The position numbers were made by a program, and so were the translations under genes. A stretch of 64,000 nucleotides of DNA, taken from Deltaproteobacteria bacterium. Its GTDB lineage: Bacteria; Myxococcota_A; Polyangia; Polyangiales; JADJMO01. This document shows positions 7,060 to 19,452 of this stretch, one piece after another; the first letter of the stretch is position 1; each line of letters begins with the position of its first letter. The stretch is from assembly GCA_025363655.1 (NCBI GenBank), contig JANYDK010000073.1, forward strand, positions 62,001-126,000, in the 5' to 3' direction. The notes beneath the pieces are model-generated. The model made no database searches and had not been told where the DNA came from. It worked only from the letters and a program-made list of their open reading frames with translations.

Positions 7060-7525
7060 GAAGGGCGATGTGCTGCCGGCGGTCGAGGCCATGGAGATGG
7101 ACGACGCGCTCGACGATGTGCTCGCGATGAGCGATGAGGAGATCGCGGCCGAGTTGCGCGCGGCTGGGGCCGATCCCGATGCGATCGGTCGAGCAGGCGC
7201 GTCGCACGCGGCGAAGCACGAGGCACGACTCGGTCGGCTCGGGTGGCAAGCGGCTGCGCGGACGCGACTCGAGACGGCGCGTGCTGCGGCGGCAGGCGTA
7301 CCGAAGACGCCGAAGTTGCCGCGCGTCGAGCTGCTCGCGCGCCTCGATGCCGCGCGTCGTGATGGACGGTTTGCGGCGCCGCTGGCAGCGGCGTTTCGGA
7401 AGCGCGATGCGGAGCAAAGCAGTGATGAGGAGCTGTGTGCTCTGCTCGACGAGATCGCGGCGCTCGATGCGATTGCGTCGGCAGAGGGGAAGGGCACGAA
7501 AGGCGAGGGCGGCGGCAAACGATGA
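7046..7525 (+). CDS. Acidic/Ala-rich hypothetical protein, possible anti-sigma or repressor partner
   Basis: The ATG lies 14 nt inside the sigma-like gene and follows GAAGAGG. The 159-residue product opens with a Lys/Arg patch (MAKRKKG), then a strongly acidic helix (EMDDALDDVLAMSDEEI), followed by Ala/Arg-rich helices and a Gly/Lys tail. There is no membrane segment. I do not recognise a family. Position between a sigma-like factor and a metallopeptidase makes it a plausible soluble anti-sigma factor or repressor that the peptidase cleaves, by analogy with ImmR-ImmA and IrrE-DdrO; this is inference only. Confidence 0.65.
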   Translation: MAKRKKGDVLPAVEAMEMDDALDDVLAMSDEEIAAELRAAGADPDAIGRAGASHAAKHEARLGRLGWQAAARTRLETARAAAAGVPKTPKLPRVELLARLDAARRDGRFAAPLAAAFRKRDAEQSSDEELCALLDEIAALDAIASAEGKGTKGEGGGKR

Positions 7526-7553
7526 GAGATCGCGCGGGGACGAGGGACCTGTC

Positions 7554-8258
7554 GTGAGCGTCATACGGAAGCCCGCGCCGGCGGCGGTCGAGGCGGCGAC
7601 GGCACTGATCGACGAGCTGGCGATCGAGGCGCCGGAGGACATCGATGTTTCGCTGATCGCGGCGCACTGCGGCCTGTTCACGTTTCCTGGTCGGTTGATG
7701 AATGAAGAGGGGCACTTGCTGCGCGCCGGGTCGCACGGGCTCGCGATGATCGCGGAGGATGCGCTGCATACGCGAAAGTGGCGGTTCGTGTTGGCGCACG
7801 AGCTCGGACACTTCCTGCTGCATCAGGGCCACGACGACTTCGCGCGGTGCACTGCCGTGAAGGGGCGGCCGGCGCGACGGCGGGTTGAATCGGAGGCGAG
7901 TGATTTTGCGAGCGAGTTGCTGTTTCCGCGGCGGATGCTCGAGCCGATGTGCCGAGGTGCCGAGGCGCTGACGCTCGCGGAAGTGCAGGCGATAGCGGAC
8001 GTCTTCGGGGCTTCGTTGCCGGCGACGGCGTTGCGGGTGTTGACGGTGACGGAGGCCGCGTGTGCGGCGGTGCATGCGACGCGGGGTATCGTTGATTGGT
8101 GGGCTGCGAGTTCGGCCTTTCGAGGGAAGGTTCGGCGCGGGAGCACGGTGCCGGCAGCGTGGAACGACTACGAATCCAGCGCTTCGCTGCGGGCTGGGTC
8201 GGCCGCGCTTGGGGTCGCGAATGCCGAGGTCATCTGGCTGGCCCACGATTCACGATGA
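7554..8258 (+). CDS. ImmA/IrrE-family (M78) metallo-endopeptidase
   Basis: The frame contains the zinc-metallopeptidase signature HELGH at residues 82-86 after a hydrophobic strand, and the downstream SEASDFASELLFP segment, which in the ImmA/IrrE family supplies the third zinc ligand (the first Glu). Such enzymes cleave a partner repressor or anti-sigma-like protein to switch on stress, mobile-element or DNA-damage genes. I start at GTG just 28 bases after the previous stop, since the larger frame upstream is out of phase with the preceding gene. The C-terminal ~90 residues are a less conserved helical region. It completes a three-gene unit with the sigma-like factor and the acidic protein. 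Confidence 0.85.
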   Translation: MSVIRKPAPAAVEAATALIDELAIEAPEDIDVSLIAAHCGLFTFPGRLMNEEGHLLRAGSHGLAMIAEDALHTRKWRFVLAHELGHFLLHQGHDDFARCTAVKGRPARRRVESEASDFASELLFPRRMLEPMCRGAEALTLAEVQAIADVFGASLPATALRVLTVTEAACAAVHATRGIVDWWAASSAFRGKVRRGSTVPAAWNDYESSASLRAGSAALGVANAEVIWLAHDSR

Positions 8259-8488: not shown

Positions 8489-8929
8489 ATGGAGCCTCGG
8501 TCGCACGACTTGCTTTCGGCCGCACTACGTCATGTTCGTGACGCAGAGCACCTGGTCAGTGTTGGCCCGACCACATCCGTCGATCAAGCGTACCACCTGG
8601 CAGGTTTCGCTCCCGAGTGCGCGCGCAAAGCAACCTTGTCGAAGAGGACGTACGACAGAGCGATTGGGCATGGCATCGGTGCCGCCAGTGAGGTCGCCCT
8701 TCAGACCGCGATCGCGATCGACCCGGGCGCTCGTCGATACGACCTGGAGGGCTGGCAGGCTCGTTTTCCTGCGCTCGCCAACTGGAGCGAGAGCGCCCGC
8801 TACGAACGCACGGGACAGCGAGCCGCCTCCGAGGTTGCCGTTGTCGTAGCGGAGGCTCGTGAGATCGTCGATCGAATCGTCCTCACGCTATGGATGGACG
8901 GCGCAATTCCTCAGGATTTCTCATGGTGA
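8489..8929 (+). CDS. HEPN-domain-like protein
   Basis: A 146-residue helical protein. Its first helix (DLLSAALRHVRDAEHLV) and the following YHLAGFAPECARKA motif (residues 35-48) match the first two helices of HEPN proteins that nucleate around an 'A-x-E-C-A-x-K-A' core; a later RYERTGQRA segment fits the fourth helix. The canonical RNase motif R-x4-6-H is not clearly present (the closest is RTYDRAIGH, with different spacing), so catalysis is uncertain. The gene starts a tightly overlapping trio: its stop lies inside the start of the KGGVGR ATPase. HEPN proteins in such settings are often toxins or effector subunits controlled by ATPases; here that is inference. Confidence 0.7.
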   Translation: MEPRSHDLLSAALRHVRDAEHLVSVGPTTSVDQAYHLAGFAPECARKATLSKRTYDRAIGHGIGAASEVALQTAIAIDPGARRYDLEGWQARFPALANWSESARYERTGQRAASEVAVVVAEAREIVDRIVLTLWMDGAIPQDFSW

Positions 8930-10251
8930 GCTTCGACGACGTCCTGGAGATTCTCCTGCGTACCTGCGAAAACTTCCCGGGCTTCGGCGGCGTCGAGAGG
9001 GCGACGGTCGTGCGCGACATTCGCGGGCATGTTCGCATCGCGCTGAAAGTCCCGACGGGCCCGCTGGACATCGCATCGCTCGAAGCTGTGCTCGGAACGG
9101 CCCTCGGTAGCTGGTTTGCGCGCCCGATCCTCGGTCCCGAAACTTCGGGCGAGCTTTCTCGCCTTCGCGGCATGGTGCTTGGCGAGATGGCTCCGTGGAA
9201 TGGCGCGCGCTGGACGGATCCTGCCACGGGAAGTCCGCATGTGCCGCCGCCTGGTCGTTGGCATCGCATCGAGCGCCACGTGTCGAAGCTCGATTGGGTG
9301 GGCAGCGAGAAGACGAAACCTCCGTGGCCCTTGGTCCGACAGAGGCCAGCGATCGTGACCTTCTATTCGTTCAAGGGCGGCGTCGGTCGGACCACGTTGC
9401 TTGCGTCGACGGCCTGGCAGCTCGCGGCCGAGGGAAAACGCGTCGTCGCGATCGACCTCGACGTTGAAGCGCCAGGCCTTGGAGCGCTCCTGGGGGCCGA
9501 CACGCGGCGTGGCGTGCTCGATTTCCTCGTCGATCACGCGGCCACCGCTTCCACGTCGCTGGATGATCTGGCCGCCCCGGCCCATGAGCTCGGCGATCTC
9601 GCATCTCTCGTCGACGTCATCCCGGCTGGGGTCATCGACGCGCGCTACTTCGAGAAGCTTGCCCGGCTCGACTTCGTGGGTTCACTCCTGGATCCCGAGG
9701 AGAAGCGGCCGGTTCGCGACGGGCTGCGTGCGTTGCTGAGGGCGGTCGCTAGTCGCGCTCCGGCACCAGACTACATTCTCCTCGACTCACGCGCCGGTCT
9801 GCATGACGTCGCTGGCCTCTCACTTCACGATCTCGCTCACGTTGACGTGCTCGTCGGTCGCGACTCCGACCAAGGATATCGCGGGCTCGAACTGACGGTC
9901 GAAGCGATCGGACGCCGGCGGCGCTTCGAGGACCTGCGCTGCGTCGTCGCTCAAACGATGGCCCCGGACGACTCGCAGTCGGCGGAGTATGCGCGCGTGA
10001 CCGGGGAATATCGCCGGAGGAGTCATGACGCATTCCTTGCGCACGTATACTCAAACGATCCCGATGCGGACAGTGATGACCCGACGGTCGAGGACGACGA
10101 TGCGCATCACTTTCCGAGTGTCGTCCTTTTTCAAAACCGTTTGGTCACGTTCACCTCGCTGTCGTCGCGTCGACAGGAGCTATTCGCCGACGACTATAAG
10201 CGCGCGAAGGATCGCATCGTCGAGCTGTGCGTCCCCGAGGTCGGCCAGTGA
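8923..10251 (+). CDS. KGGVGR-variant ParA/MinD-like ATPase with N-terminal associated domain
   Basis: Residues ~1-140 form an N-terminal domain of unknown fold that ends in a basic RHVSKLDW stretch and a Pro-rich PPWPL linker. A SIMIBI-type NTPase follows: deviant Walker A KGGVGRTT at residues 151-158, in which the usual P-loop Lys is Arg, then DLDVEAPG and a Walker B-like DYILLDSRAGLHD. These features define the KGGVGR-motif variant ATPases, a ParA relative often found beside effector-type genes in multicellular bacteria. The gene overlaps the HEPN gene by seven bases and the next P-loop gene by four (GTGA), so the three are one translational unit. It likely acts as a nucleotide-dependent switch rather than in plasmid partition, because no ParB partner is present. 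Confidence 0.85.
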   Translation: MVSFDDVLEILLRTCENFPGFGGVERATVVRDIRGHVRIALKVPTGPLDIASLEAVLGTALGSWFARPILGPETSGELSRLRGMVLGEMAPWNGARWTDPATGSPHVPPPGRWHRIERHVSKLDWVGSEKTKPPWPLVRQRPAIVTFYSFKGGVGRTTLLASTAWQLAAEGKRVVAIDLDVEAPGLGALLGADTRRGVLDFLVDHAATASTSLDDLAAPAHELGDLASLVDVIPAGVIDARYFEKLARLDFVGSLLDPEEKRPVRDGLRALLRAVASRAPAPDYILLDSRAGLHDVAGLSLHDLAHVDVLVGRDSDQGYRGLELTVEAIGRRRRFEDLRCVVAQTMAPDDSQSAEYARVTGEYRRRSHDAFLAHVYSNDPDADSDDPTVEDDDAHHFPSVVLFQNRLVTFTSLSSRRQELFADDYKRAKDRIVELCVPEVGQ

Positions 10252-11714
10252 GCGCGCGAGCCGTCGTCAAGCCCGTGGAGCGCAAGGAGCTCCTCGAGCA
10301 CATCGGTTCGCTGGCGACGGACGCCGACGCTGTGATCGGCGAGGCACGCCGGGTCTTCCTTCCGCTGGCCCAGCATCGGCTCGCGTTGCGACCGGAGATC
10401 GTCATCATCGCCGGCACTCGCGGCGCCGGGAAAACGGCGTTCTTCCGCCTCGTCAACGAGCTTGGCAAACGAGTCCCGGCCTTCTTCGAGGACCCCTCGA
10501 TTCCCTCCGCCACCTGGGTCGATGCCTTCAGCGAAGAGCGACATCACCCGCCCCCCGCCGCGCTCGATCAGCTGGTCCGAGAGCTCGATCCTAACCGCGA
10601 CGCCGCGCTTCGTGCGTTCTGGATTGCACATCTCCTCACGCGCCTCGTCGATGCGCGCGTGCCGGGTGCCATCGTACCTGAAGTGATCGTACGCGCGAGG
10701 GCCGTACACGCGCATGACCTCGGCGCATGGGTGGCCATCGCGGAGCAAAACATCGGTATCGCAATGTCCGCCCTGGATGCGGTGGACGCGGCGCTTGCCG
10801 CAAAGAAGCAGTTCGTCTTCGCTTCGTACGACTACCTCGATCGCCTCGGTCTCCTCGAGGGCAGCCGCAATACACGGCAGCGCCTGGTTCGATCGCTCGT
10901 TGCACTTTGGCTCTCCAATTCGACGCGCTTTCGTCACCTCCGCGGCAAGATCTTTCTGCGTCCCGATCTCTTCGAGGAAGCCGAGAGGAGCTTTCCCGAC
11001 GCAAGCAAGCTCCGTCCCCGATCGGTGTCGCTCGAGTGGGACGTCGAGTCTCTGTACCGTCTCACGATCCGACACCTTGCGAACGGCGGACCGCACGTTG
11101 CGGAGATGCGCGCTTGGCTCATCGCGGCCGGGCTCGGGCTCGATGCTCACGAAGGCGGCACCGATTTCGGAGTCGTCCCGGGTGACATGCCTGAGGGCAA
11201 ACAACGTCAGTTCGCGGCGCGCCTCGCGGGCGAGGTGATGGGCAAAGGCGCTCGGAAGGGGTACACGCATCGGTGGATACCGGCGCGTCTCAAGGACGCC
11301 GGCGGAATGATCGTCCCACGCTCGTTTCTTCGGCTCATCGGTTACGCGGGCAAGTCCGCGAGGCAGTCGGTCCCTCTGACAGGCCCACTGATGGAACCGA
11401 CGCGTCTCGTAGGTGCCCTCCAGCAGACGTCTCGCGATCGCGTCAACGAGCTCAAGGAGGAGTATCGCTTTGTCGAGCGGCTCTCGAACCTCACCGGCGC
11501 CACGATGCTGATGGATCGACGGAAGGTGATCGACAGCCTTTCTCGTGGTGCAGATGCGGACGACGGCTTTGGAAAGAATGGTGCTTCTGTCCTCGACGAG
11601 CTCCTTCGCATCGGCGTGGTCGAGGTTCGTGATGACGGTCGTATCGACGTGCCTGACATCTATCGCTATGGCTATGGCATCAAACGCAAGGGCGGCGCCA
11701 AGGCTCCTAGGTAG
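10248..11714 (+). CDS. P-loop ATPase of a putative conflict system
   Basis: A GTG start overlaps the previous stop. The 488-residue protein has Walker A GTRGAGKT at about residues 56-63 after the hydrophobic strand EIVIIAG. A likely Walker B follows, FVFASYDYLDRL near residues 190-200. Helical regions come next, and the C-terminus has a winged-helix look (RKVIDSL, then LLRIGVVEV and a beta hairpin), ending in a basic tail. This resembles the Sll1717-type group of STAND/AAA-like ATPases. Its partner upstream is the KGGVGR ATPase; together with the HEPN-like protein they resemble sensor-switch-effector conflict systems. The substrate or trigger cannot be read from sequence. Confidence 0.75.
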   Translation: MSARAVVKPVERKELLEHIGSLATDADAVIGEARRVFLPLAQHRLALRPEIVIIAGTRGAGKTAFFRLVNELGKRVPAFFEDPSIPSATWVDAFSEERHHPPPAALDQLVRELDPNRDAALRAFWIAHLLTRLVDARVPGAIVPEVIVRARAVHAHDLGAWVAIAEQNIGIAMSALDAVDAALAAKKQFVFASYDYLDRLGLLEGSRNTRQRLVRSLVALWLSNSTRFRHLRGKIFLRPDLFEEAERSFPDASKLRPRSVSLEWDVESLYRLTIRHLANGGPHVAEMRAWLIAAGLGLDAHEGGTDFGVVPGDMPEGKQRQFAARLAGEVMGKGARKGYTHRWIPARLKDAGGMIVPRSFLRLIGYAGKSARQSVPLTGPLMEPTRLVGALQQTSRDRVNELKEEYRFVERLSNLTGATMLMDRRKVIDSLSRGADADDGFGKNGASVLDELLRIGVVEVRDDGRIDVPDIYRYGYGIKRKGGAKAPR

Positions 11715-14017: not shown

Positions 14018-15208
14018 TCACGGGAGTCGCGCGGTCGAGGAACGGAGCTGTTCTGCCACCGCGAGCAAGGCAGCCGCGTCGACGCGCTTCTTGAAGCGAA
14101 GCACGGCACCCGCCACGTCGCCGTCCTCGCATGCCAACGATTGGTCGATGCACACGATCAGTGGCCGGTACGCCGCCGCCCGCAGGGCCTCGAGCTTTCC
14201 GTGCAGGTACTCGGGCGTGTAGAACCCGACCACTTCGACCAAGGCGACGAAGCCGTCGACGTGCCGGATGGTGAAGTCGGGAAAGAAAGGCCGGCCGCCG
14301 ACGTTCACGGCATCGGCCTCGCGGACGAGCGACCAAGGCCCGCCAATGCGCCGAACGTCGCGCGCCAGCGCCCGTTCGACGGCGCTGTCGGCGTCTTTGG
14401 GAAGCTTGTGCGTACGGGCGATGCGATCCGCGGCGCCGACGTGGACGACGACGGGCTCATCGCGCAGCACGCACCTCGCCTCGAGACGGAATCCGGTGGT
14501 GGCGACGACCGCGGGAAAGAACGACGCCAGCGCGAACCCGTACTTGGTCGTGTGTCGCAAGATCGAGAGCGGGCCGGAGACCTCGAGCCGCGTGCCGTTC
14601 TCGCCGACGGCATACGTGCAAAGGAGACCGGCGAGCTTGGCAAAGCGAACCACGGCGCGGACGTGTTCGCGCACGTCCACGGTCACGCGCTCGCTTCGAA
14701 GGAGGAGCCCTTGCACGAGCGCGAGGTTGTAGGCGTCCACGACGACGGCCGGAGACGGCGGCGCCGCGGGGGCGACGATGCGACGCGCGGGGGGACGATC
14801 TGCGAAGAGGGCGCGAACGATCTCGGAAGCTGGCACACCGAGGCGAGACTCCGCCCGGGAAAGGGCGAGGGCGCGATCGTAGTGCGCATCCCGTCCGGCC
14901 TCCTCGAAGACGGCCGCTCGCACGGCGACGGGGTCGAGCGGAGTATCGACCTTGGTCTTGAACCGGCGCGACAGGACATGAACCACGCCATCCGCGGCCC
15001 GCGTCGAGACGCCGTGGTCCCGCGCGATCGAGCGGACGCGATCGACGAGCTCGGCGTCGCGCTCGCGGACCGTGCGCCCGACGTAACCGTCGAACCGATC
15101 GATGACCGCGCGCACCCACACCTCGTCGCGCCCCGTGAGGTAGCGCGGCGACGCGCCGGCGAGGTGGCCTTCACGCGCGTTGAGGAGAAGAAGATCGGCC
15201 GGCAGCAA
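14018..15208 (-). CDS. DUF790 family nuclease, Bax1-like partner of XPB helicase
   Basis: The 396-residue product matches the DUF790/Bax1 layout: an N-terminal helical part beginning LLLLNAREGHLAGASPRYL, a central region with VVVDAYNLALVQGLLLRSE and LLCTYAVGENGTRLEVSGP, and a PD-(D/E)xK-like nuclease core with FFPDFTIRH (~residue 308) and VEVVGFYTPEYL (~324-335). In archaea Bax1 binds XPB and cuts DNA at bubble structures. The start overlaps the helicase gene upstream by 38 nt, so the two proteins are co-expressed. It should act in nucleotide-excision-like repair or in defence. Confidence 0.85.
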   Translation of the reverse strand: MLPADLLLLNAREGHLAGASPRYLTGRDEVWVRAVIDRFDGYVGRTVRERDAELVDRVRSIARDHGVSTRAADGVVHVLSRRFKTKVDTPLDPVAVRAAVFEEAGRDAHYDRALALSRAESRLGVPASEIVRALFADRPPARRIVAPAAPPSPAVVVDAYNLALVQGLLLRSERVTVDVREHVRAVVRFAKLAGLLCTYAVGENGTRLEVSGPLSILRHTTKYGFALASFFPAVVATTGFRLEARCVLRDEPVVVHVGAADRIARTHKLPKDADSAVERALARDVRRIGGPWSLVREADAVNVGGRPFFPDFTIRHVDGFVALVEVVGFYTPEYLHGKLEALRAAAYRPLIVCIDQSLACEDGDVAGAVLRFKKRVDAAALLAVAEQLRSSTARLP

Positions 15209-16556
15209 AACGCCTCCCTCGCGCGCGGGTGCGCGCCTCGTCGACGGTGTCCATGGTCATGAGCTCGTAGGCGATCGCCCTCTTGCCCGGCTCGGGGCGG
15301 AGAACGCGACCGATTCTCTGGACGTGCTCGCGGACGCCGAGCGCGCCGGCGACGATGACCGCGACGTTGGCCTCCGGCACGTCGACCCCCTCGTTCAAGA
15401 CGCGCGCGCTGCAAATCGCGGGGACGCGCCGCTGACGAAACGCCGTGAGAATCGTCTGCCGCTCGGCCCGTCCCACGTCTGCGGTGATCACCGGAATCAG
15501 CGCCTCCTCGGCGAGGGCGTAAGCGTCGTCGGCCGTCGCGGTGAAGAGCAGCGTGCGGTCACTGCGGTGCCGCGCCAGAAGCTCGCGGACGGCGGCTCGC
15601 TTGGCCGAGGGAAAGGCGGCGAGCGCGCCCGCTCGGTGCATGGCTGCGAGCACGTCGCTTCCCTGCGGCGTGCGGGCGATGGCCTTGACGCAAGTGAGCC
15701 AGTCGGCGTCGGGATTCAGACGCAAGACGTCGCGACGAAGGGCTGCGAATCGCTCGATGTCGCGCCCGTACGCGAGCCGTTCGTCCGCTGTCAGCGCGAC
15801 GCAAACCTGCACGACCTCGAGCGGCGCGAGATCGCGACCGGCGAGGTCGGCGATTTCGAGCTCGAAGACCACCGGTCCGACGAGATCGCGGAGGCGTTCG
15901 GCGCCCAGCGATCCGGGGAAGGGCGGCGTCGCCGTCAGACCGAGCCGAATGGGCGCGGCACACATCTCCAAGGCCTCGGCTCGTCCGCCGCCGGAGAAGT
16001 GATGAACCTCGTCGACGACGAGCATCCCGAAGCGATCGCCGTATCGATCGAGGCAGCGATAGGCGCTCTCGAAGGTCATGACCGTGATCGGCTCGAGCTG
16101 CTTCACTCCGTCGCCGACGATGCCGATGGGACCGCCGAACTGCGCGCGCAGCACCGACGACCACTGCTCGAGGAGCACGCGCGTCGGCACGAGGACGAGC
16201 GTGCGCTCCCCCGCCCGTGCGATCGCGGCACATGCCACGCGGGTTTTTCCGCTTCCCGTCGGGAGGGCGACGACTCCGCGTCGGCCGAACGAGTGAAACG
16301 CGAAGAGCGCCTGCTCCTGATACGGCCGAAGCGAAGGCGGTGGCTCCTGCGTCCGCGTGGAGCGGAGGGTGGGCTCGAGGCGATTCTCGACGTCGAGGGC
16401 ACGACGGCGACAGGCATCGAGGACGGTTGCGTAGTGGTGAGCAGGCGCGCGATGGAACCCGGTGCGGTCGTCGCGACGAACGAGCTCGGAAATCGACTCG
16501 ACCGCACCATCGACACGGAGGGTGCCTCGATCGAAGGAGAGCCGAATCGGCGACAT
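15171..16556 (-). CDS. XPB-like superfamily 2 DNA helicase
   Basis: Motifs of an SF2 helicase appear in order: a Q-like LRPYQEQAL, Walker A LPTGSGKT (~98-105), DEVHH box (182-186), LGLTATP motif III, and in the second RecA fold RVLNEGVDVPEAN and REHVQRIGRVLRP (motif VI). Length (461 residues) and the DEVHH box fit bacterial/archaeal XPB. The first ~70 residues (LSFDRGTLRVDG) resemble the N-terminal damage-recognition-type domain. It is encoded with the Bax1-like nuclease and diverges from a SWIM-SNF2 helicase with 265 bp between starts. XPB unwinds DNA around lesions; no UvrABC gene is nearby. Confidence 0.87.
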   Translation of the reverse strand: MSPIRLSFDRGTLRVDGAVESISELVRRDDRTGFHRAPAHHYATVLDACRRRALDVENRLEPTLRSTRTQEPPPSLRPYQEQALFAFHSFGRRGVVALPTGSGKTRVACAAIARAGERTLVLVPTRVLLEQWSSVLRAQFGGPIGIVGDGVKQLEPITVMTFESAYRCLDRYGDRFGMLVVDEVHHFSGGGRAEALEMCAAPIRLGLTATPPFPGSLGAERLRDLVGPVVFELEIADLAGRDLAPLEVVQVCVALTADERLAYGRDIERFAALRRDVLRLNPDADWLTCVKAIARTPQGSDVLAAMHRAGALAAFPSAKRAAVRELLARHRSDRTLLFTATADDAYALAEEALIPVITADVGRAERQTILTAFRQRRVPAICSARVLNEGVDVPEANVAVIVAGALGVREHVQRIGRVLRPEPGKRAIAYELMTMDTVDEARTRARGRRFAAGRSSSPQRA

Positions 16557-16821
16557 GCTGACTGCTATCAGCAGGAAGTGGGCCGGGAGAGTTCTTCGAG
16601 GATCGTGCCTCCGCGGCTGGCGGGTGGCGGCGATTCGCCGGCGGGCGCCGGCGGCGATGCCTCACGGACATGATTCGACTCTTCGCCGCGCCAGTACATG
16701 CGCGCCTTGGTCGATCGCCTCGAGCAGTCGAGGTGGAGTCGCCGGGTGCATTGATCGGGTCGAGTCGGTGGGCTCGTCGGAGCCTCTTGCCGCCGCGCGT
16801 GCTCCCGTCGAAGGAAGCTCC

Positions 16822-19452
16822 GTGCCTACGCTAACGCTCAAGCCCGTCCGCCACACGGCCCCGATCTGCCTCGACTACGAGGATCACGCCTCCGTCGTCC
16901 GTTTCGAGCGCGAAATGCGCGTCCACCGCGCGCACACCGAGCCCTTCCTCCTCGAGGTCCCCTTGGCGATCGACGGCACGTTCTTCGTCCACGGCGAGCG
17001 TGGCTCGCGATGGCTCGTGGACATCGTCGACGGATCCCGGGGCAACGACTGCTGCAATTGTCCCGACTATCTCACCAACGAGCTCGGGACCTGCAAGCAC
17101 CTGCAAGCGGTCCATCGCGCCATCGAGTCGAGCACGCGGCTCACGGCAGCGCACCGTCGGCTGCCGGCTGTGCCGGAGACGCCGACGCTGACCGTCGACG
17201 GGCGTGGCATCGCGCGGATCCTCGCCGTCGGCCGTTGGACCGAAGCCTCGGTCGCGCGGCTTGGCCTGCGAATGGGACCGCGTGGCGTCGAGCCGATCGA
17301 GAGCGTCGACGCGCTCGCGGCGCCTCCAGGCAACGTCCGCATCGTTCACGCCGCACTCCCGGTCGCCCAGCGGTGGCAGCTGCGCAAGGCCAGCTCGAAG
17401 CGTACCGCCGCCGTGACCCGCGCGTTCTCGAAGCAGGGCGTGGCCCTCGACGTCCTCCGCGCGCCGCTCTTTCCCTATCAACTCGACGGCGTCACGCACC
17501 TCGCCAAGCAGGGTCGTGCGCTCCTCGCCGACGACATGGGCCTCGGAAAGACCGTGCAGGCGGTCGCTGCGTGCGAGCTGCTCCGTCGCCGCGGCGAGGC
17601 GAGCCGCGTGCTCGTCGTCACCCCCGCATCGCTCAAGGATCAGTGGGCGCGCGAGATTTCTCGCTACACCGGTGAACGCGCGATCATCGTCGGCGGAGAT
17701 GGCGAGTCGCGGGCCCGCGCGTTCGAGAGCGACGCGCCCTATCGCATCGTCAACTACGAGCTGACCTGGCGCGAGCTCGAGCGGATTCAGGCGCTCGACG
17801 CAGATATCCTCGTGCTCGACGAGGCGCAGCGAGCGAAGAATTTCCGCAGCAAGACGGCGACGACGCTCCGCGAGCTGCCGTCGCGCTTTCTCTTCGTGCT
17901 CACCGGAACGCCGGTGGAGAATCGGCTCGACGATCTCTACGCACTGATGCAGCTGGTCGATCCGTCGCTCCTCGGGCCGCTCTGGCGCTTCAACCACGAG
18001 TTTCACGTGCAGGCGAAGAAGGGGCGCGTCACGAGCACCAAGAACCTCGGCGAGCTGCGCACACGGCTCGCGCCGGTGCTGCTGCGGCGTCGCAAGGAAG
18101 AGGTGCTTTCGCAGCTCCCCGCGCTCACCGAGCAGACGCGCTACACCGCGATGACCGAGCTGCAGGTGCGCCTCGAAGGCGAGCACCGCGCCGAGGCGGC
18201 GAAGCTCATGAGTCTCGCCGAGAAGCGAGCGCTGCGCCCCGAGGAGCTGCAGCGCCTCATGGGGCACCTGCTCAAGGCGAGGCAAGCGTGCGACGCCGTC
18301 GAGCTTTGCGACGCCCGCCGAGGAAAGGGCTCGCCGAAGCTCGACGAGCTCGAGCAGCTCGTCTCCGAGATCGTCGAGCAAGGGACGGCGAAGATTCTCG
18401 TCTTCTCGGAGTGGGTCGAGATGCTCGCGCTCGCCAGCGCGCGGCTCGATGCGCTGGGTATTCGTCACGAGATGCTCCACGGCAGCATTCCCACCGACAA
18501 GCGACCGGAGCTCTTGCGACGGTTTCGCGAGGATGCCGACGTGCGCGTGCTGCTCTCGACCGATGCGGGCGGGGTCGGGCTCAACCTCCAGGAAGCGAGC
18601 TACGTCGTACATCTGGATTTGCCGTGGAATCCCGCGAAGCTCGACCAGCGAACGTCGCGCGCCCATAGGCTCGGGCAGACGCGCGGCGTGTCGGTGACGT
18701 GCCTTTGTGCGGAGTCGGGGATCGAGCGGGGCATCGAGGGCACGCTGGGGGCCAAGCGCGCCCTGCGCAGCGCCGCGCTCGATGCCGAGAGCGACGTCGA
18801 CGGCGTGACGGCGGTCGGGTTCAGCGTCTTCCTGGCGCAACTGAACGAGGCGATGGAGAAGCTCGAGCGCGCGCGGGCCGAGGCACCCCCTGCGGCCGAA
18901 GCGGTCGAGGTCGAGGTCCAGGCCGAGGAAATCAGCGTGGCGACGGAGAGTGCCGCAGCGATCGCGGCCACGCCGACTTCGGAGACGTCGGCTGGGCAAT
19001 CTCCGGCGGCGCCGGGAGTCGACCACGTCGCGTCCGGCGTGACCCGTTCGCCCGCGCGCGAGCGTTTGCGATTCGCGCGTGTGGTCCTCGATGCAGGCTT
19101 CCCTGCAGATGCGGCATCGGCAGCCTACGAGGCGCTCGCGTCGTCACTGTCCGCGATCGCACTTGCCGACGAGGCGTCGGGCACACGGCGAGCGATGGAT
19201 CACGGCGCACTCGTCGCGATGCTCTATCGCGATCTGGTTCCGCGCGGGCTCGTGCCGGCTTCGGTCGGGAGCGTCCTTGCTCGGCTCCGGGATCTCACGT
19301 TGCTAAGGGCGGAAGGCGTCGCGCTCGAGGCGTCGATGGCCGCGGAGGCCGTCGCGGAGGCGGAGGAGTGGGTAGGCAGGATGTCGACGCATCCAGCGAT
19401 GACGACATCCTCTGGACCCGCTCCAGCGGCTTCAACAGCAGTGCTTGCATGA
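16822..19452 (+). CDS. SWIM zinc-finger SNF2-family helicase/ATPase
   Basis: A GTG start is preceded by AAGGAAG. Residues 75-96 hold a SWIM finger (CNCPDY then GTCKH). The SNF2 motor follows: DDMGLGKT (~237), VVTPASLKDQW, the DEAQ box (~333), LTGTPVENRLDDL, and in lobe 2 ILVFSEWVEM, STDAGGVGLNLQ and RAHRLGQTR. A Glu/Ala linker separates a C-terminal ~110-residue helical domain (RFARVVLDAGFPADAA...) that looks HEPN-like. Such proteins translocate on DNA and remodel bound proteins; SWIM fingers contact DNA or protein. Its 876 residues are complete. Divergence from the XPB/Bax1 pair suggests a shared role in DNA transactions. Confidence 0.88.
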   Translation: MPTLTLKPVRHTAPICLDYEDHASVVRFEREMRVHRAHTEPFLLEVPLAIDGTFFVHGERGSRWLVDIVDGSRGNDCCNCPDYLTNELGTCKHLQAVHRAIESSTRLTAAHRRLPAVPETPTLTVDGRGIARILAVGRWTEASVARLGLRMGPRGVEPIESVDALAAPPGNVRIVHAALPVAQRWQLRKASSKRTAAVTRAFSKQGVALDVLRAPLFPYQLDGVTHLAKQGRALLADDMGLGKTVQAVAACELLRRRGEASRVLVVTPASLKDQWAREISRYTGERAIIVGGDGESRARAFESDAPYRIVNYELTWRELERIQALDADILVLDEAQRAKNFRSKTATTLRELPSRFLFVLTGTPVENRLDDLYALMQLVDPSLLGPLWRFNHEFHVQAKKGRVTSTKNLGELRTRLAPVLLRRRKEEVLSQLPALTEQTRYTAMTELQVRLEGEHRAEAAKLMSLAEKRALRPEELQRLMGHLLKARQACDAVELCDARRGKGSPKLDELEQLVSEIVEQGTAKILVFSEWVEMLALASARLDALGIRHEMLHGSIPTDKRPELLRRFREDADVRVLLSTDAGGVGLNLQEASYVVHLDLPWNPAKLDQRTSRAHRLGQTRGVSVTCLCAESGIERGIEGTLGAKRALRSAALDAESDVDGVTAVGFSVFLAQLNEAMEKLERARAEAPPAAEAVEVEVQAEEISVATESAAAIAATPTSETSAGQSPAAPGVDHVASGVTRSPARERLRFARVVLDAGFPADAASAAYEALASSLSAIALADEASGTRRAMDHGALVAMLYRDLVPRGLVPASVGSVLARLRDLTLLRAEGVALEASMAAEAVAEAEEWVGRMSTHPAMTTSSGPAPAASTAVLA

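Follow-up and report, generated by a model that had tools for sequence, protein, structure and literature searches.

A bacterial XPB-Bax1 gene pair lacking the helicase RED motif, in a genome that also carries a RED-positive pair

Introduction

Does a helicase-nuclease gene pair of archaeal type, found in a bacterium, serve DNA repair or defence? The question is raised by two overlapping genes of a Deltaproteobacteria bacterium of the order Polyangiales (GCA_025363655.1), located in a stretch of 64,000 nucleotides (contig JANYDK010000073.1, positions 62,001 to 126,000), referred to below as the window. The human XPB gene is a disease gene. In S. tokodaii, XPB and its nuclease partner Bax1 are described as encircling the duplex at a fork, where the XPB thumb wedges the strands apart; the residues of the RED motif contact the fork junction, and RED mutants show lower fork binding and ATPase (available part of PMC7672443).

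A first-pass annotation of the window, made from its letters, had recognised such a pair and asked whether it belongs to repair or to defence. We analysed the two proteins, their relatives in other genomes and their gene neighbourhoods, and found two features that the annotation had missed: the helicase has lost RED, and the same genome holds a second pair.

Results

A complete XPB-Bax1 pair

The pair and its key residues are located as follows.

15171-16556, minus strand: XPB-type SF2 helicase, RED-less (type II) subfamily, 461 aa, ATG start
14018-15208, minus strand: Bax1/DUF790 nuclease, 396 aa, TTG start
15171-15208, minus strand: overlap of the XPB and Bax1 genes, 38 nt
15894-15926, minus strand: XPB residues 211-221 (PPFPGSLGAER), the position of RED in other XPBs, from alignments
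14375-14377, minus strand: Bax1 Glu278 codon, aligned with AfBax1 E274, which adjoins the named E275 (PMC7293015, available part)
14276-14278, minus strand: Bax1 Asp311 codon, aligned exactly with AfBax1 D305
14234-14236, minus strand: Bax1 Glu325 codon, aligned exactly with AfBax1 E318
14195-14197, minus strand: Bax1 Lys338 codon, invariant in type II, Arg in type I

The first-pass annotation had described an SF2 helicase with a DEVHH box overlapping by 38 nt a DUF790 protein with PDF and EVVGFYTPEYL motifs, and the reading frame coordinates and all of these motifs were confirmed. Its identification of the two as XPB and Bax1/DUF790 with an archaeal-like nuclease is likewise borne out, by Pfam and solved-structure matches and by the aligned active-site residues.

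The helicase has the damage-recognition domain and the XPB-type helicase core that characterise XPB (RAD25/ERCC3) helicases: Pfam XPB_DRD (E 8.6e-13) and ERCC3_RAD25_C (E 2.7e-12) both score above their cut-offs, and ResIII and Helicase_C are also matched. Its best solved match is A. fulgidus XPB (2fwr, 6p66; E 3.9e-78, residues 6-451), and its AlphaFold model (pLDDT 90.5) is closest by TM-score to StXPB in the XPB-Bax1-forked DNA complex (6p4f_C; TM 0.84, rmsd 3.0). A thumb (ThM) insertion was found as in archaeal XPB, the protein aligning there unbroken with AfXPB and StXPB and the model placing helices at residues 257-280, 286-294 and 299-314. The score to the NCBIfam equivalog NF045503, 155.7 bits, is below its cut-off of 610.

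The nuclease gene, whose TTG start is preceded by GGGAGG, encodes a full-length DUF790 match (PF05626; E 4.6e-78, profile positions 1-386 of 387, 263.1 bits against a cut-off of 28.8). The NCBIfam Bax1 equivalogs NF053694 and NF053695 match at E 1.1e-48 and 4.7e-46, yet at 157 and 166 bits they stay under the cut-off of 500. Five solved Bax1 sequences match at E 6e-37 to 7e-25, and the AlphaFold model (pLDDT 85.7) has TM-scores of 0.69-0.73 to the Bax1 proteins of S. tokodaii, A. fulgidus and P. furiosus, the closest folds being those of S. tokodaii and P. furiosus (0.72-0.73). The proposed active site of AfBax1 consists of E275, D305 and E318 (PMC7293015, available part); three acidic residues occur at these places in the window Bax1, E278 being offset by one residue from E275. 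Judged on their sequences, the domain and solved-structure matches of both proteins are far beyond chance.

To see how the two genes travel, we used a set of 42 order loci (the window, the second locus of its genome, L003, and 40 fetched stretches) together with 80 loci from other genomes. Under a strict gap rule, XPB lies directly upstream of Bax1 on the same strand at 37 of the 42 order loci and 70 of the 80 others. No XPB was seen at 2 of the former and 6 of the latter; four of these six have less than 500 bases available upstream, and in L161 and L145 4.7 kb and 3.0 kb are available there. The XPB and Bax1 trees have 55 of 93 splits in common, as against at most 3 in 200 label shuffles. 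By these comparisons the window pair is complete, with ATPase motifs and nuclease residues, and co-inherited. The overlap suggests translational coupling, and the two genes are probably read from one overlapping message.

Separated genes were also seen. Certain other genomes, from families f6, f30 and f43, have XPB and Bax1 on different contigs. At L049 and L180 (both f6), L167 and L174 Bax1 stands apart from its XPB, and in G051, G028, G155 and G292 a different contig carries the XPB. The f6 Bax1 proteins have the top Pfam scores in the order.

Two subfamilies that differ in the RED motif

Both proteins of the 42 order loci split into two groups with support 100. Type II XPBs read DExHHF[AGS] ... 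GLTAT and are without RED; type I XPBs read DExHHLP ... TATPERxDG and have it. The ATPase residues GSGKT, DExHH and QRxGR are common to both types, and about 29 columns, RED included, tell the two apart. At the RED site the window XPB reads TATPPFPGSLG, with R213 and D215 both absent.

The 80 other loci were kept from 287 relatives found in a species-genome collection with one type II-like peptide pattern, a scan that undersamples type I-like Bax1. From them 56 XPBs were added to a joint XPB tree, 7 near-copies and 17 missing or short XPBs being left out. Trees were quick maximum-likelihood trees with SH-aLRT support only. Even with the RED columns removed from the joint tree, the 42 type II XPBs formed one clade (SH-aLRT 99), which spans Myxococcota, Acidobacteriota, Rokubacteria, Elusimicrobiota, Eisenbacteria and two records labelled Pseudomonadota; type II Bax1 also formed one clade (support 100). 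R213 and D215 occur together in 1 of the 42 type II XPBs, in 25 of 25 type I XPBs and in 28 of 28 other rows, every archaeal row included, that is, in all 53 RED-positive rows from archaea, other bacteria and type I. Trees and alignments thus place the window XPB in a bacterial type II subfamily that lost the RED motif.

The match between RED state and type is imperfect. A strict absence of RED from type II was rejected, since the one exception, L098, keeps R-D-D: it reads PPRDD, comparable to the RDD of S. tokodaii, and is a possible intermediate. In the other direction, the XPB of L149 (Gemmatimonadota) is RED-less and lies on a long branch outside the type II clade.

Two further loci deserve mention. 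L123 is a type II pair in a metagenome-assembled genome labelled Klebsiella pneumoniae, probably a mislabelled bin. L073 (7625-8863, minus strand, genome G136) is a type II Bax1 for which no XPB was seen within 7.2 kb, in a genome that also has a type I pair.

The nuclease residues were then counted in the same classes. Among type II Bax1 proteins E278 is present in 48 of 49 and D311, E325 and K338 each in 49 of 49; the other non-type I proteins (n=40) have all three acids in 40 and K338 in 35. Type I proteins keep D311 and E325 (25/25) and have Arg for K338 (25/25), and none of the 25 has Glu in the E278 column, where the alignment is unsure. A simple loss of the first glutamate from type I was rejected, as the region aligns ambiguously and most rows have acidic residues one or two places upstream; going by the alignment, the type I site is altered, and we claim no more. 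Taken together, the nuclease and RED counts show that the archaeal-type nuclease signature goes with the RED-less motor in type II, and the reverse holds in type I.

A second, type I pair in the same genome

The 9.0 Mb genome holds DUF790 and XPB_DRD exactly twice each, at the same two places. The second pair (contig C106, locus L003) is type I and RED-positive, and adjoins LPG-synthase and Lon genes. It resembles the window pair in architecture, gene order, overlap and protein families. It differs in that its XPB keeps RED (GLTATPERQDGRE), and its Bax1 reads VPDL and EVMGYWSR and, as in the other type I rows, has Arg at the K338 position and no residue aligned with E278. A recent duplication as the source of the two pairs was rejected, because type I XPB clusters with XPBs from archaea and of the KSB1 type (support 95) and not with type II. 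DUF790 is found in all five genomes of the window's family, in two separate copies in four of them and as one gene in two pieces in G002.

Proposed function

We think it probable that the window pair is an accessory structure-specific helicase-nuclease of DNA repair, an XPB-Bax1 heterodimer with altered fork handling. XPB would translocate on duplex DNA and its thumb would split the strands at a bubble or fork; Bax1 would then cut the strand beside the junction, and this incision would serve DNA repair side by side with UvrABC (UvrC was found in the genome). The complex of the window Bax1 with XPB and its cleavage beside bubbles are predicted by analogy, and the repair role would be carried over from archaea, where in vitro work supports it. 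To our knowledge, no activity is known for any bacterial XPB-Bax1. Since thumb and motor are both retained in type II, translocation and wedging are to be expected, minus the RED contacts. Lacking these contacts from helicase domain 1, the motor may grip the fork more weakly or differently, and type II should then be a cutting-led accessory endonuclease, possibly dealing with lesions or structures outside the range of type I; it is the conservation of motifs that suggests this cutting-led mode.

A more elaborate version, which we put forward as tentative and somewhat doubtful, has two complementary bacterial XPB-Bax1 machines that are often both kept, type I combining a motor that grips the fork through RED with an altered nuclease site, and type II a RED-free motor with a nuclease of archaeal grade. 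They would divide unwinding and cutting between them or act sequentially on one lesion, type II being a translocating structure-specific endonuclease and not a bubble-opening helicase.

Distribution and inheritance

The first-pass annotation had called such pairs scarce in bacteria, which the counts contradict: DUF790 is present in 110 of 144 genomes of the order (62 of 70 genera) and in 153 of 282 sampled genomes of the phylum, apart from the 287 relatives obtained in the one scan mentioned above. The type II copy is much more restricted and occurs in 29 of the 144 order genomes, as judged by a higher score to a type II alignment than to Pfam, with 17 also checked by motif; type II-like fragments in G062, G077 and G139 were left out of this count. 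A non-type II copy accompanies type II in 28 of these 29 genomes and is present in 81 of the remaining 115 (Fisher p 0.003, uncorrected for relatedness). G029 (family f9) is the lone type II genome with no other DUF790 copy; an XPB_DRD search of this genome, which is 94% complete, gave no match.

A single type II clade for host family f12 was rejected (AU p 1.9e-9 with order rows, 4e-42 with other phyla included), whereas a single type I clade for that family was not (p 0.09), and the type II copies of the order were rejected as one clade with respect to other phyla (p 0.0016). The window's own family, f1, forms one clade in both types, with four type II rows at support 100. Several type II lineages within family f3 were considered and dropped, one clade not being rejected there (p 0.13 and 0.26). 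These tests and counts together indicate that type II moved or was lost more often, yet is stable within family f1. The window's type II copy behaves as accessory, and to that extent the accessory character suspected in the annotation has a basis.

Neighbourhood and rival readings

A role in defence or as a selfish element would also fit the patchy spread and the splitting of host families in the tree. The pair might be an anti-phage module that works like other helicase-nuclease systems, the helicase scanning DNA as it enters and Bax1 cutting it; we regard this as unlikely. It would account for the presence of type II in a minority of genomes and for the contrast between the two types in f12, and candidate defence genes lie near the window pair:

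7134-8258, plus strand: CapP-like M78 peptidase, PADLOC E 1e-35
8890-10251, plus strand: PDC-M28B, AAA ATPase with KGGVGR motif, E 1.2e-56
10227-11714, plus strand: PDC-M28C, E 5.5e-68

The PDC-M28 candidate defence system is 2.3 kb from the pair and the CapP-like peptidase as far as 5.8 kb; a TPR gene lies in between. The wider survey of flanks gave no clear sign of such an association. For 86 genes beside 29 type II loci, PADLOC at E 1e-20 showed no family with more than two members among the 25 of 49 families listed, and for 90 genes beside 23 type I loci again no family with more than two members. Among the families listed, PADLOC models are no more frequent beside type II than beside type I pairs, and on these flanks a defence island was set aside as the probable general setting of type II pairs; the defence association suspected at first is not supported by them. 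No PADLOC model matches the window Bax1, and the window XPB has partial helicase matches alone (PbeA and others). A search of 50,697 phage records gave no relative, and the single type II clade of f1 also speaks against this reading. A tblastn search of plasmids returned 40 distant records, most from Deinococcus and haloarchaea, all below 60% identity (27-35% for the 15 listed). Apart from open reading frames that overlap the pair, no gene family recurs at more than 7 of the 49 type II loci, and searches for repeats around the locus, as well as Rfam and tRNA scans of the window, gave nothing informative.

Alternatively, the pair could be the bacterial equivalent of archaeal XPB-Bax1 and nothing more: a housekeeping repair pair that is handed down vertically and has no function of a special kind. 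The breadth of DUF790 across the order, its genera and the phylum agrees with this, as does the single f1 clade. The order's widespread pair, however, is the RED-positive type I, which the window's genome has as well, while type II is found in few genomes, breaks host family f12 and lacks residues kept in every RED-positive XPB. These points make the housekeeping reading quite improbable for the window pair.

The remaining neighbour is a helicase gene that the first-pass annotation had singled out:

16462-19452, plus strand: SNF2 helicase, divergent from the pair, likely start GTG 16822, in frame after GGAAG

The gene is real, and a CxC...CxH SWIM-like zinc finger motif is visible in its protein, in which the Pfam SWIM model finds no match; the protein is related to the SCO1167/SCO6262 family, under that family's cut-off. 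What fails is the link to the pair: within the fetched stretches an SNF2 match occurs at 1 of 42 order loci (the window alone) and 4 of 80 others, and the survey of other genomes that had been suggested found none in the remaining 41 order loci, three type II loci of the same family included. A single three-gene system of XPB, Bax1 and SNF2 is accordingly very improbable and largely refuted, despite the divergent arrangement with about 265 bp between the likely SNF2 start and the XPB start and despite homologues in the stretches of type II loci L087 (189 bits) and L100 (179 bits) and of Planctomycete loci L138 and L141 (390 and 377 bits, the SNF2 gene being separated from Bax1 by about 3 kb).

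Discussion

We favour an accessory repair role for the window pair. XPB-Bax1 pairs can now be placed in many bacteria and, in the genome of the window, beside UvrC. A large RED-less clade with an intact nuclease, together with a RED-positive pair in the same cells, offers a direct test of the role of RED, and the coexistence of type II and type I allows a test of how XPB controls incision. Two versions in one genome are a natural experiment on how the XPB-Bax1 machine works.

Three known groups of systems can be compared with the window pair. PbeA and the Dnd restriction helicases (PADLOC, TIGR04095) share partial SF2 similarity with the window XPB (E 6.8e-44 and 1.5e-34). The PbeA profiles, of 626-722 positions, match it in part alone, TIGR04095 gives 119.8 bits against a cut-off of 600, and no partner genes of PbeA or Dnd systems were seen beside the window pair. 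The XPB of Mycobacterium tuberculosis is, like that of the window, an XPB-family SF2 helicase in a bacterium. It differs, according to the available part of its description (PMC3353954), in an N-terminal domain like that of eukaryotes, in the presence of RED, in a thumb that is slight or missing, and in that no Bax1 partner is known.

The closest relatives are the archaeal XPB-Bax1 complexes of A. fulgidus (6p66) and S. tokodaii (6p4f, 6p4o, 6p4w; PMC7293015, PMC7672443). They share with the window pair the DRD and helicase core, a Bax1 of full DUF790 length with active-site Asp and Glu, matching folds and, in the archaeal loci examined, the same gene order. The window XPB differs in lacking RED, in reading HHFS instead of HHLP and in the remaining class-specific columns, and the window Bax1 has a shorter C-terminus, with 396 aa against chains of 468 and 501 residues. 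The available part of a 2012 paper presents RED as absolutely conserved in XPB and a bacterial XPB-Bax1 complex as not yet identified (PMC3353954); a 2026 review, in the part available, describes XPB-Bax1 for archaea (PMC13024598). Within the open-licence literature searched, neither titles nor abstracts dealt with an XPB without RED or with XPB-Bax1 in bacteria. Against these systems, the window pair is of a kind already known; what looks new is the RED-less subfamily and the presence of two contrasting pairs side by side.
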